Positions 20,585 to 30,046 of a stretch of DNA of 64,000 bases are shown piece after piece. The translations under genes and the position numbers were made by a program. The notes under the pieces were generated by a model that was given only the letters and a program-made list of their open reading frames with translations, ran no database searches and was not told where the DNA came from. Positions within the stretch are counted from its first letter, which is position 1, and each line of letters begins with the position of its first letter. This DNA comes from Hyphomicrobiales bacterium (GTDB taxonomy: Bacteria; Pseudomonadota; Alphaproteobacteria; Rhizobiales; Rhizobiaceae): positions 62,001 through 126,000 of the forward strand of contig UBPA01000009.1 in the NCBI GenBank assembly GCA_900467185.1. Reading direction: 5' to 3'.

Positions 20585-22294
20585 TCAGGCCACCGGCTCC
20601 TCGATCACCCGGTTGGCAGCCGACACGATGGCTTCCAGAGAGGCCGTCACGATGTTGGTGTTGATGCCGGCCCCGAAGAGCTTGCCGCCATTGTGCTCGA
20701 CCTCGACATAGGCGATGGCCGCCGCGTTGGAGCCCTGCTGCAGCGAATGCTCGGAATAGTCGGCAACCGAGATATCGACGCCGAGATAGAGCGACAGCGC
20801 ATTGATGAAGCCGTCGATCGGCCCCGTGCCCCGCCCCTCGATCATTCTCGCCTCGCCGCGATCGGTGATCTCCGCCTGCACGATGCGCGCGCCGCGATGC
20901 TCGCCGAGCGGCAGAGTCGTGTGATCGACATAGCGGATGCGGGCGCCCGGCTGCTCGATATAGCGCTCCAGGAACCGCGCATGGATCGCCTTGGACGGCA
21001 GTTCCTTGCCCTGCTCGTCGGTGATCCGCTGGATATCCTCGCGGAACTCCACCTGCAGCGCCCGCGGCAGGTTGATGCCGTAATCCTCCTGCAGGATATA
21101 GGCGATGCCGCCCTTGCCCGACTGGGAGTTGATGCGGATGATTGCCTCGTAGGACCGCCCGACGTCACGCGGATCGATCGGCAGGTAGGGCACTTCCCAT
21201 TGCGGCTTGTTGGCGGTCTTGATCGCCTTCATACCCTTGTTGATGGCATCCTGATGCGAGCCGGAGAAGGCCGTGTAGACCAGTTCGCCGACATAGGGGT
21301 GTCGCTCGGTGATCGCCATCTGGTTGGAATACTCGTAGACGTCCTTGATCCGCTCGATGTCGGAGCAATCGATCTGCGGATCCACACCCTGCGTGAACAT
21401 GTTCAGCGCCAGCGTCACGATATCGACGTTGCCCGTCCGCTCGCCATTGCCGAACAGCGTCCCCTCGACGCGGTCGGCACCGGCCATCAGGCCGAGTTCC
21501 GCAGCGGCGATGCCGGTGCCCCGGTCGTTATGCGGGTGCAGCGAAATGATGATGTTTTCGCGGTTGTCGAGGTTGCGGCACATCCACTCGATTTGGTCGG
21601 CATAGATGTTCGGCGTGGACATCTCGACCGTCGAGGGCAGGTTCAGAATCAGCTTGTTCTCGGCTGTCGGCTTGATGATCTCGGCCACGGCATTGCAGAT
21701 CTCCAGCGAGACCTCCAGCTCCGTTCCGGTAAAGCTCTCCGGCGAATATTCGAACCGGAAGTCGCCGCCGGCCTTTGCCGCCATGTCGGCGATCATCTTT
21801 GCCGCATCCGTGGCGATCTGCTTGATGCCCTGAACGTCCTTGGCAAACACCACCCGGCGCTGCAGTTCGCTCGTCGAATTATAGAAATGCACGATCGGCT
21901 TGTTGGCGCCCTGCAGCGCCTCGAACGTCCGCGTGATCAGCTCCGGCCGGCACTGCACCAGCACCTGCAGCGACAGGTCAGCCGGAATATTGCCTTCCTC
22001 GATGCACCAGCGCGCGAAATCGAAGTCCGTCTGCGAGGCCGAGGGGAAACCGATCTCGATTTCCTTGAAGCCCATATCGACCAGCAGCTGGAACATCCGC
22101 GCCTTGCGGTCATGGCCCATCGGATCGACGAGCGACTGGTTGCCATCGCGCAGATCGACGGAACACCAGATCGGCGGGCTGGAAATCGTCTTCGACGGCC
22201 ATGTGCGGTCGGTGATCGGCACCTGCGGATAGGGCTGATATTTAGACGCGGCCGAGGGCATGCCCTGTTTGACGGTATGGGACTTCAGGATCAT
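20585..22294 (-). CDS. leuA: 2-isopropylmalate synthase
   Basis: Joins acetyl-CoA and 2-oxoisovalerate in the first committed step of leucine synthesis. 569 residues from ATG 22294 (MILKSHTVKQG), which has AGAGAA upstream. The catalytic loop is SVDLRDGNQSL near residue 46; the metal-binding HPHNDRGTG lies near 252. A C-terminal allosteric LeuA_dimer domain (about 430-560) gives leucine feedback inhibition. A leucine-rich leader peptide and hairpin lie 215 bases upstream, so expression is probably also leucine-controlled. The terminator follows the stop. Confidence 0.95.
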   Translation of the reverse strand: MILKSHTVKQGMPSAASKYQPYPQVPITDRTWPSKTISSPPIWCSVDLRDGNQSLVDPMGHDRKARMFQLLVDMGFKEIEIGFPSASQTDFDFARWCIEEGNIPADLSLQVLVQCRPELITRTFEALQGANKPIVHFYNSTSELQRRVVFAKDVQGIKQIATDAAKMIADMAAKAGGDFRFEYSPESFTGTELEVSLEICNAVAEIIKPTAENKLILNLPSTVEMSTPNIYADQIEWMCRNLDNRENIIISLHPHNDRGTGIAAAELGLMAGADRVEGTLFGNGERTGNVDIVTLALNMFTQGVDPQIDCSDIERIKDVYEYSNQMAITERHPYVGELVYTAFSGSHQDAINKGMKAIKTANKPQWEVPYLPIDPRDVGRSYEAIIRINSQSGKGGIAYILQEDYGINLPRALQVEFREDIQRITDEQGKELPSKAIHARFLERYIEQPGARIRYVDHTTLPLGEHRGARIVQAEITDRGEARMIEGRGTGPIDGFINALSLYLGVDISVADYSEHSLQQGSNAAAIAYVEVEHNGGKLFGAGINTNIVTASLEAIVSAANRVIEEPVA

Positions 22295-22467
22295 TTCGGT
22301 TCTCTTCGACTTCACAGCGTCCGGCATCGCGTCGATTCGGAGCATGGATCGCTGTCACGGTGAAACGTCGCGCGGGATGCCTTAACCGATCGGAGGCCGG
22401 TTGACGATGGCAAATGCTTGGCCAAGTGCTGGAAAAGGCTGCGGAGACGTCGGATTTTAGCGGAGGC

Positions 22468-22512
22468 TAAGGAGCTGTGCCGGTGGGCTTGTCGGCCACC
22501 GGGCGCTCCTTA
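22468..22512 (-). promoter_or_regulatory. Long hairpin directly after leuL
   Basis: On the minus strand the bases AAGGAGC (beginning inside the leuL stop codon) pair with GCTCCTT (plus-strand 22469-22475), and an inner CCGGTGG pairs with CCACCGG. The two stems are separated by small bulges and cap a 9-base loop. No U-run follows, so it is not a classical intrinsic terminator. Its place between leuL and leuA suggests an attenuation or mRNA-switch element. Confidence 0.55.
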
Positions 22513-22635
22513 AAGAACCCGGCAACCGCGCGTAAGGCCGAGAAGAAGAAGCGAGGTGAAGGCGCGCGAGCGATCGCGAACGACGGTGCGTCCCCGGGAA
22601 AACTGCTCGATGATCTTGGCGCTGTTCTTCGACAT
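22510..22635 (-). CDS. leuL: Leucine-rich leader peptide of leuA
   Basis: A 41-codon frame (ATG 22635, TAA 22510) ending TSLLLLGLTRGCRVL: four consecutive Leu codons (22540-22551) and six Leu in the last 13 residues. It sits upstream of leuA on the same strand and runs straight into a strong hairpin, the layout of an attenuation leader. There is no Shine-Dalgarno sequence, but a TTGCCC-N17-TATAGA promoter places the transcript start at or next to the A of the ATG, so the mRNA would be leaderless. The symbol leuL is by analogy. The first 28 residues (basic, with RGRTVVRDRSR) are unusual for a leader. Confidence 0.6.
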   Translation of the reverse strand: MSKNSAKIIEQFSRGRTVVRDRSRAFTSLLLLGLTRGCRVL

Positions 22636-22637
22636 GA

Positions 22638-22653
22638 CCGGCTCTATAGCCGG
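22638..22653. promoter_or_regulatory. Palindrome over the -10 box of leuL
   Basis: CCGGCT, loop CTAT, AGCCGG: a perfect 6-bp inverted repeat covering the whole TATAGA box and ending two bases from the predicted transcript start. It is a candidate repressor site. Confidence 0.35.
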
Positions 22654-22671
22654 AGCACCGAAAAAGGGCAA
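22643..22671 (-). promoter_or_regulatory. Predicted leuL-leuA promoter
   Basis: Minus-strand TTGCCC (22671-22666), exact 17-base spacer, TATAGA (22648-22643). Transcription would start near 22636-22635, the first base of leuL. Same architecture as the trpL promoter. Confidence 0.65.
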
Positions 22672-22763
22672 GGGTGGATGAAGAAAAAGGCACTTGCTCA
22701 TGTGCAAGGCATCGTCTGATGACGAAACGCGATGCTCGCAAGGTCGCCCACCGGTGTTGGAAA

Positions 22764-22791
22764 TTGCATATTCCGAATTTGCAGCTACACT
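22764..22791 (+). promoter_or_regulatory. Predicted promoter of the Phd/PIN toxin-antitoxin pair
   Basis: TTGCAT (22764-22769), 16-base spacer, TACACT (22786-22791). Only six bases separate the -10 box from the antitoxin ATG and no Shine-Dalgarno is present, so the transcript may be leaderless. Near-direct repeats GAAATTGCA and GAATTTGCA overlap the promoter and could be antitoxin-binding sites. Confidence 0.45.
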
Positions 22792-22797
22792 GGCCAC

Positions 22798-23073
22798 ATG
22801 ACCACGATCCCGATCCGAGACGCCAAGAACCGCCTGACCGAACTGGCCCGCCGCGTGGAAGACGGCGAGCGCTTCACCGTGACCCGCAACGGCAAGCCGG
22901 TGATGGAACTGGTGCCTGCAAAACAGCCTGTCGGGATCGATTGGGAAGGGCTGGAAGCCTATAAGCGCGAGAAGGGGATTACCCATTTCTTTGGCGACAT
23001 CCCGGCGGATTTCGATGATCCGCTACCGGAAGACTTTCTGATCACGCCACTTCCGCTTCCGACCAAGAGTTGA
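22798..23073 (+). CDS. Phd/YefM-family antitoxin
   Basis: 91 residues from ATG 22798. The N-terminal Phd fold is clear: TTIPIRDAKNRLTELARRVEDGE (start) and FTVTRNGKPVMELVP. The C-terminal half, acidic and Pro-rich (IPADFDDPLPEDF), should be the toxin-binding tail. It overlaps the downstream PIN toxin in TGATG, so the two are translationally coupled. Antitoxins of this family normally repress their own promoter. Confidence 0.85.
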   Translation: MTTIPIRDAKNRLTELARRVEDGERFTVTRNGKPVMELVPAKQPVGIDWEGLEAYKREKGITHFFGDIPADFDDPLPEDFLITPLPLPTKS

Positions 23074-23465
23074 TGTCCCGTCTCCTGGACACGCATATCT
23101 TCATCGCCCTGCTCGAAGGCCGCTTCGAGCAGCTACCGCCCGCTGTCCGGCAGGAGGTCAGGGCCGAGAATGGCGCACTCTATCTCAGCGTGGCAAGTCT
23201 CTGGGAGATCGCGATCAAATCGAGGATCGGCAAGCTTCCGCTCAAGACTCCGTTGGACAATCTTCCGGACGCTGCAAGGCAAGCCGGACTGTCCATTCTC
23301 CCGATCAACGAACATCATGCCCTCCACACCGTCACGCCGGAGCCATCGACTCGCGATCCGTTCGATAGGCTGTTGCTCGCCCAATGCGCCGTCGAGAACA
23401 TGCGGCTCGTGACCATAGACCGGGCTCTGGCCGACCATCCCCTGTCGGCAACTGCTGCCCCGTAA
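23073..23465 (+). CDS. PIN-domain toxin of the Phd/VapC type
   Basis: 130 residues from ATG 23073. PIN motifs: LLDTHIFI with the first Asp (residue 6), SLWEIAIKSRIGKL with the Glu, and the D-R-L-L-L-A-Q and TIDRAL acidic positions near the C-terminus. The LLDTH form and the SxWEIAIK helix place it with COG3744-like PIN toxins usually paired with Phd antitoxins. The catalytic acidic residues are all present. A terminator hairpin of the converging clpP gene follows almost at once. Confidence 0.85.
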   Translation: MSRLLDTHIFIALLEGRFEQLPPAVRQEVRAENGALYLSVASLWEIAIKSRIGKLPLKTPLDNLPDAARQAGLSILPINEHHALHTVTPEPSTRDPFDRLLLAQCAVENMRLVTIDRALADHPLSATAAP

Positions 23466-29931: not shown

Positions 29932-29963
29932 AAAAAAGCCGCCTCGAAACTCCGGGCGGCTTA
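29932..29963 (-). terminator. trp attenuator terminator
   Basis: Minus-strand AAGCCGCC, 11-base loop, GGCGGCTT, then TTTT: an 8-bp GC-rich stem with a U-run. It lies about 40 bases after the trpL stop and 46 bases before trpE(G), exactly where an attenuator is expected. Confidence 0.88.
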
Positions 29964-30001
29964 TCGTCAAAATCCATCACGCAGGACTGATCGAGGCCGC
30001 T

Positions 30002-30046
30002 TTAGCGAGCCCACCACCAGACAGAGAGGATGCGTGCGTTGATCAT
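30002..30046 (-). CDS. trpL: trp operon leader peptide
   Basis: A 14-codon frame encoding MINARILSVWWWAR, with three consecutive Trp codons (30011-30019). It corresponds to the Sinorhizobium trpL peptide, which is also 14 residues long and ends WWWAR. Ribosome stalling at the Trp codons should prevent formation of the downstream terminator. The promoter places the transcript start at about the ATG, so the mRNA is leaderless, as reported for S. meliloti. By analogy, the released leader RNA and peptide could also act in trans. Confidence 0.92.
   Translation of the reverse strand: MINARILSVWWWAR

Follow-up and report, generated by a model that had tools for sequence, protein, structure and literature searches.

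The region upstream of leuA in this genome raises the question of how a short leucine-rich reading frame, apparently translated without a ribosome-binding site and followed by no recognizable terminator, could control the gene behind it. To address this question, we compared the locus with its relatives and with leuA leaders of more distant bacteria; the window denotes the whole 64,000-nucleotide stretch of DNA that was analysed, and its relevant features are compiled in Table 1.

Table 1. Features of the leuL-leuA region and of trpL within the window
Feature	Position	Strand	Basis or remark
leuA, 2-isopropylmalate synthase, long (TIGR00970) type	20585..22294	-	758.9 bits, above cut-off; start by conservation
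GAAGAGA, Shine-Dalgarno-like sequence of leuA and putative target of the Leu run	22301..22307	-	consensus folds
Helix 2, 3' arm (C), GCTCCTT; closes H-type pseudoknot with helix 1	22469..22475	-	covariation
CCACCGG, alternative partner of arm B, inner stem of the long hairpin	22480..22486	-	folding energy, covariation
Helix 1, 3' arm (B), GCCCGGTGGCCG, past the stop codon	22493..22504	-	alternatively pairs with 22486-22480
Helix 2, 5' arm, AAGGAGC, in the helix 1 loop, overlapping the stop codon	22505..22511	-	7 pairs
leuL, predicted leaderless leader ORF, 41 codons and stop	22510..22635	-	sequence; frame kept in relatives
Helix 1, 5' arm (A), CGGTTGCCGGGT, within the final leader codons	22517..22528	-	12 pairs, conserved
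Final Leu codon ahead of helix 1, CTT	22534..22536	-	5 nt 5' of helix 1
Leu run CTT CTT CTT CTC, putative sensor codons and anti-Shine-Dalgarno strand	22540..22551	-	codon-usage counts, pairing comparisons
leuL promoter, -10 hexamer TATAGA	22643..22648	-	sequence; layout counts; 17 nt past -35, 7 nt to ATG
leuL promoter, -35 hexamer TTGCCC	22666..22671	-	sequence; TTG at same distance in relatives
trpL MINARILSVWWWAR*, leaderless promoter layout, T-run terminator	29932-30046	-	sequence

The leader frame upstream of leuA

A first-pass annotation of this DNA had proposed a 41-codon frame 5' of leuA on the same strand, with four consecutive Leu codons and two more close by. This frame, leuL, is indeed present, its ATG being located 340 nt ahead of leuA and its product reading MSKNSAKIIEQFSRGRTVVRDRSRAFTSLLLLGLTRGCRVL*; the four contiguous Leu codons are followed by a fifth, and the residue just before the stop is Leu as well. 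Since the reading frame stays open upstream as far as an ATG at 22986, the assignment of its start depends on promoter and conservation. The downstream gene encodes a 2-isopropylmalate synthase of the long type known from Actinobacteria and yeast (TIGR00970), and the nearest LeuA proteins, among the best 80 of 588, are those of Rhizobium sp. PP-CC-3A-592 and Leaf371 (99% and 97% identical), which places the window in Rhizobiaceae. Between clpP and leuL, a putative pair of Phd/YefM-like antitoxin and PIN-like toxin, recognized by inspection of the translations, is encoded divergently (22732-23465, plus strand); tblastn detected the antitoxin also in L002, L003 and L005 (71-94% identity) and in none of the other loci compared, and in S. 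meliloti (L112) clpP adjoins leuL.

For comparison, we used as relatives the best 80 of 588 confirmed matches, leaving out L073 (no upstream DNA) and L001 (the genome's own copy); judged by record titles this set is nearly all Rhizobiales, and S. meliloti was added separately. Every one of the 79 relatives having upstream DNA (best 80 of 588) carries a Leu-rich frame ahead of leuA, ending 114-291 nt 5' of the leuA match, and in the rhizobial set the leuA start lies 105-290 nt past the leader stop. Most of the leader C-termini follow the patterns LLLLGLxRGCRVx or LLLLGLxGDRRxR, a few being divergent (e.g. L071, L074, L078, L079), and the N-terminal sequence varies strongly from clade to clade; the S. 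meliloti leader reads MTQADAHKIAAIFSGHDANRAPARAFASLLLLGLIRGCRVR.

Outside the RNA-paired end, the median dN/dS in a sample of 42 leaders, grouped by hand into six clades, was 0.40, 0.58, 0.30, 0.82, 0.54 and 0.48, respectively. Judged by these substitution patterns, this part of the frame is under selection, at the level of protein or codons, in most clades, and weakly so in one. Codon choice differs between leader and leuA: CTT accounts for 284 of 473 Leu codons in the leaders (60%) compared to 113 of 2951 in leuA (4%), CTG for 43 of 473 compared to 1880 of 2951, and CTT and CTC together make up 408 of the 473 leader Leu codons. Such a preference fits an anti-Shine-Dalgarno role or a role in tRNA sensitivity. 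Taken together, the comparisons indicate that leuL is a real and conserved leader.

Promoter layout and predicted leaderless start

The promoter that had been assigned to leuL, TTGCCC-N17-TATAGA, is in place, and its layout recurs throughout the relatives. Searching 81 loci for TTG-N(19-21)-TA-N4-N(5-8)-ATG, we found it at 79 of 81 leader ATGs, compared to 63 of 18,338 other ATGs of the same loci and 0 of 81 leuA ATGs. As the leader starts were partly picked by promoter score, the 36 leaders having just one in-frame ATG provide the fair test, and 35 of these carry the layout; three starts (L020, L023 and L079) were shifted by hand and thereby gained it, the count before the shift being 76 of 81. 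The base preceding the leader ATG is C in 94%. A genome-wide search for the strict form TTG-N20-TATA-N9-ATG gave three matches including leuL, and its reversed-pattern control gave one. No promoter was listed by a stricter consensus scan of positions 22000-23400.

Likewise, the proposed absence of a ribosome-binding site at leuL held up, as indicated by a best AGGAGG match of at most 3/6 in 68 of 81 leaders. Ahead of leuA, a match of at least 4/6 was found in 80 of 81 loci, the leuA starts having been partly picked on that score. From the promoter spacing, the leuL transcript is predicted to start at or beside the A of its ATG (22635). The terms leuA and SMc02717 do not occur in the available main text of PMC3616915. 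Beyond the rhizobial set, the leaderless layout was observed in 8 of 25 leaders, and it is clear only within that set.

The same arrangement had been claimed for trpL, and we could recover it as TTGCCA-N17-TAACAG-N6-ATG with a start at 30046 on the minus strand. Together with leuL, this suggests that amino-acid leaders of rhizobia may commonly start leaderless. An Rfam match to RcsR1 (29932-30030) overlaps trpL and is the only Rfam match in the window; at leuL, none of 4227 Rfam models reached its gathering score, and three unrelated chance matches were found below it.

RNA structure behind the Leu codons

A strong hairpin had also been described at the end of the leader. It exists, with an outer stem formed by 22511-22505 and 22475-22469 and an inner stem formed by 22502-22496 and 22486-22480; however, no T run follows, and the hairpin is only one of two alternative folds. 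When an alignment of 80 rows (79 distinct, with L112 and L122 outside) was folded with RNAalifold, the predicted helix was not the hairpin, and instead paired the final leader codons (arm A) with RNA past the stop codon (arm B). This helix 1, of 12 bp, is paired in 99.7% of cells over the 79 distinct rows, and helix 2, of 7 bp, in 97.1%, with four pairs changed on both sides. For the pseudoknot as a whole, 98.7% of 1501 cells are paired, compared to 30-48% in slid controls, and seven pairs show changes on both sides, compared to a shuffle mean of 3.0. Restricting the analysis to the 39 rows below 80% identity gave a similar picture (helix 1: 466/468 cells paired, 6/12 pairs doubly changed; helix 2: 257/273 cells paired, 4/7 pairs doubly changed). 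By the measure of covariation, the best supported conserved structure of leuL is therefore a pseudoknot and not a hairpin alone.

In the absence of helix 1, helix 2 becomes the base of the long hairpin. The inner hairpin has a mean energy of -14.4 kcal/mol, compared to -9.8 kcal/mol with shuffled spacers (81 loci; p <= 0.05 in 49%), and a C-to-T change in arm B is accompanied by an ACCGG-type spacer in 6 of 7 cases compared to 3 of 74 otherwise, a count in which kinship is ignored. Since arm B can pair with arm A or with the spacer, two folds share a common base stem, as in the LEU element of Actinobacteria discussed below.

At least five U within the 10 nt after the structure were found in just 3 of 81 loci (mean 2.2 U), and a terminator scan of the window listed none at leuL. 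Given this lack of a U tract, leuL would not be an ordinary terminator attenuator, and we rejected this plain form of attenuation. A strongly C-over-G, Rho-like region after the element was likewise rejected, the base shares being 0.29 for C and 0.26 for G (n = 76).

The position of the structure relative to the Leu codons is strikingly constant: in 80 of 81 leaders, L068 being the exception, the final Leu codon before helix 1 is CTT and lies 5 nt upstream of it. We extended this comparison to 62 leuA loci outside the rhizobial set, of which 6 had no recognised leuA motif, 12 had no Leu leader and 44 had one. A stop-spanning helix was present at p <= 0.05 in 22 of the 44, its sequences being quite different from the rhizobial ones and some of the loci being close kin. 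In these 22 leaders, which were picked by Leu content, the spacing is 5 nt in 12 and 4 nt in 5, that is in 17 of 22 compared to 15.6% in shuffles, the remaining five spacers being 13, 13, 6, 3 and 1 nt. The 5-nt spacing is found in Nocardia, Tsukamurella, Nonomuraea and Cupriavidus, and a spacing of 3 nt in Microbacterium; in a set of leaders picked partly by helix quality, loop helices at p <= 0.05 were obtained in Nocardia, Tsukamurella and Nonomuraea, and were not significant in Microbacterium, Sphingomonas and Cupriavidus.

When the A site holds the last Leu codon, helix 1 begins at +12 from the P-site codon, next to the position of about +11 at which ribosomes open mRNA. In a more speculative reading, the pseudoknot may report, to one codon, the passage of the last Leu codon, and perhaps retain the ribosome there.

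A covariance model built on helix 1 only gave hits at E <= 0.01 in 4 of 289 sampled genomes of the class, its own included; in its own genome it found the leuL site and, beyond that, just two others, with E values of 1.6 and 1.9. Being too sequence-bound, this model misses divergent leaders. Two further leader types deserve mention. In the betaproteobacterium Cupriavidus campinensis (L125), the leuA leader ends in SLLLDLPTGCRA, very like the rhizobial LLLLGLTRGCRV, and carries a 12-bp helix 5 nt past the last Leu codon with no significant loop helix. In the Pseudomonadota loci L133, L136 and L138, the leaders end in LTRP, and a helix of a different family (CCCTTAGGCG/CGCCTAAGGG) follows the final Leu codon at a distance of 4-5 nt, again ahead of leuA.

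We also analyzed the pairing of the Leu run with the leuA Shine-Dalgarno sequence. The energy of this pairing is -15.4 kcal/mol compared to -13.3 kcal/mol for other Shine-Dalgarno sequences of the same loci, and it is the lower of the two in 56 of 78 cases (p 4.6e-6, kinship ignored). In 5 of 7 clade groups, which comprise 52 of the 81 sequences given, consensus folds join the Leu run to the leuA Shine-Dalgarno by 4 to 10 pairs, and the pairing partner shifts where the Shine-Dalgarno differs. No such pairs were seen in the groups Rhizobium (13 sequences, several of them shortened by start assignment) and Pseudo (9). An exchange of partners across species left the energy nearly unchanged (-15.3 own compared to -15.0 swapped, p 0.086) and does not establish covariation of the two strands. 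Single-sequence folds reach a pairing probability of at least 0.5 in 4 of 11 loci (0.03 in S. meliloti), and, for the window taken by itself, 17% of 53 control Shine-Dalgarno sequences pair equally well with the Leu run. Support for a pairing between the Leu run and the leuA Shine-Dalgarno is accordingly mixed and of moderate strength.

A possible mechanism, its rivals and known leaders

As a prediction from sequence comparison, leuL probably turns leuA on under leucine shortage. Control of leuA translation by a stalled ribosome appears the most likely route, with termination as its main rival, and we favour with moderate confidence a model in which leuL, as a leaderless leader of leuA, senses leucine and follows the architecture of the LEU element. 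In this model, 70S ribosomes would initiate at the 5'-terminal AUG of leuL. With ample leucine, the ribosome would reach the leuL stop, open helix 1 and then depart, whereupon the bared pyrimidine Leu run would bind the leuA Shine-Dalgarno, the intervening folded region drawing these distant segments together, and leuA translation would be held low. With charged Leu-tRNA scarce, the ribosome would halt on the Leu codons and mask the run, helix 1 and the pseudoknot staying intact ahead of it, so that the leuA Shine-Dalgarno would be free and leuA made. The Leu codons would accordingly have two functions, sensing leucine as the stall site and silencing leuA as its anti-Shine-Dalgarno. A more speculative extension, which we consider possible and put forward tentatively, is that a ribosome-gated RNA switch of this kind, consisting of a sensor, a silencer and a gate with no terminator, is common to two phyla, and that the geometry is the conserved principle.

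Transcription attenuation would assign the same elements differently, in that the pseudoknot or helix 1 would act as antiterminator and the long hairpin would terminate, weakly alone or together with Rho, once a ribosome is at the stop. Mutually exclusive folds sharing arm B resemble classical attenuators, a ribosome at the stop would mask arm A and thereby favour the hairpin, and trpL, also encoded in this window, works by transcription termination, as does S. meliloti trpL in the available part of PMC7298713. Against this stand the scarcity of U tracts and a C excess that is weak for a Rho site, as given above, and the available text on Streptomyces lividans LeuL1, which likewise describes a leader without a typical terminator (PMC8079986); we regard attenuation as rather unlikely, yet as the strongest of the alternatives.

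The other readings carry far less weight with us. A compact and highly conserved pseudoknot could chiefly be the binding site of a regulatory protein, the leader peptide being secondary, as Seliverstov et al. proposed on the basis of a helicase-like protein found there in Actinobacteria only (PMC1262725); however, the Leu codon is set at a regular in-frame distance from the helix, the promoter is placed to start the RNA at the AUG and the frame is under purifying selection, all of which indicates the ribosome as sensor, and we judge the proposal improbable. Similarly low is the probability we give to leuL also yielding a small RNA or peptide that acts elsewhere, like rnTrpL/peTrpL: purifying selection acts on its basic N-terminal part in most clades and S. 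meliloti offers a precedent in the available part of PMC7298713, but such a product is superfluous for explaining the anatomy, the N-terminus is strongly clade-variable, and a discrete small RNA is hardly expected where no terminator exists. That leuL is a chance open frame ahead of leuA, as the further opening of the frame upstream in the window might hint, is contradicted by its presence in 79 of 79 relatives (best 80 of 588), by covariation and by the promoter position, and we consider it virtually negligible.

The model of a stalled ribosome controlling leuA translation has to be set against leaders already described. The first-pass annotation had called a leaderless leu leader less described, which is borne out for rhizobia in the open-access literature searched; leaderless leuA leaders lacking a terminator are, however, described in the available text on Streptomyces lividans (PMC8079986), and the LEU element of Actinobacteria in a paper of 2005 (PMC1262725). 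No rhizobial leuA leader, and no leuA transcript end or leucine regulation in a rhizobium, was found among the matches listed from the accessible open-licence literature. Both the LEU element and leaderless leaders as such (trpL, polycysteine ORFs, LeuL1) are hence known already; new, as far as the open-licence literature shows, are an LEU-like leader in Rhizobiales, the covariation of its pseudoknot and the 5-nt rule.

The leuL of E. coli is led by a Shine-Dalgarno sequence and ends in an intrinsic terminator; it shares with rhizobial leuL the Leu codons ahead of leucine-synthesis genes. According to the portions available of PMC7298713 and PMC10117765, trpL/rnTrpL of rhizobia is leaderless, as predicted for leuL, and likewise has consecutive sensor codons. 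The two differ in that trpL comprises 14 codons and a T-run terminator, whereas leuL has a pseudoknot and no T run. Mycobacterial polycysteine ORFs (Canestrari et al. 2020) are described in the accessible parts of PMC9031893 and PMC13236596 as leaderless and as controlling downstream translation; they resemble leuL in their contiguous sensor codons and differ in that these encode cysteine. For Streptomyces lividans LeuL1 (MRFGLLLLSCRGEGL), the text available of PMC8079986 reports a mapped leaderless transcript, a Leu run and no Rho-independent terminator; it resembles leuL, with its predicted leaderless start, in these respects and has a shorter peptide.

The closest resemblance, however, is to the LEU element of Actinobacteria (Seliverstov et al. 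2005), which comprises an ORF with a Leu run upstream of leuA, a pseudoknot and an alternative hairpin, has no terminator, and was proposed to pair its Leu run with the leuA Shine-Dalgarno (PMC1262725). Like leuL, it stands before leuA as a short Leu-run ORF with a conserved pseudoknot, an alternative hairpin and no terminator; our match of the pseudoknots was made to its published description and not to its drawing (PMC1262725). In contrast, leuL has about 41 codons compared to 13-16 in the LEU element, the helix sequences differ, and leuL occurs in alphaproteobacteria, where PMC1262725 does not place the element. In Nocardia farcinica (L113), a species included in PMC1262725, the leader MQRALLLGRRDGV carries a helix of 11 bp with a loop helix of 7 bp, and the leuA leaders of Tsukamurella and Nonomuraea resemble this anatomy; the leuA leader of C. 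diphtheriae, MNRANLLLLRRGGSQA, fits the pattern in the available part of PMC5784534. Two of six actinobacterial leuA loci had no such leader, namely Streptomyces L114 and L123, in both of which leuA is plasmid-borne. Rhizobial and actinobacterial leaders precede the same gene with the same geometry and a similar LLL-[GS]-CR motif, and because of this shared anatomy, the actinobacterial examples and the published leaders, we call leuL LEU-element-like. The LEU element has resisted explanation since 1999-2005, with Leu codons, no terminator and misfitting mutants in Streptomyces coelicolor, in which changes of Leu codons gave results reported to be inconsistent with classical attenuation (PMC1262725). 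A like anatomy that is predicted to be leaderless and covaries strongly makes the LEU question directly testable in tractable rhizobia, and the geometric rule, which is sharp and is kept even where the helix sequences diverge, adds to this testability.
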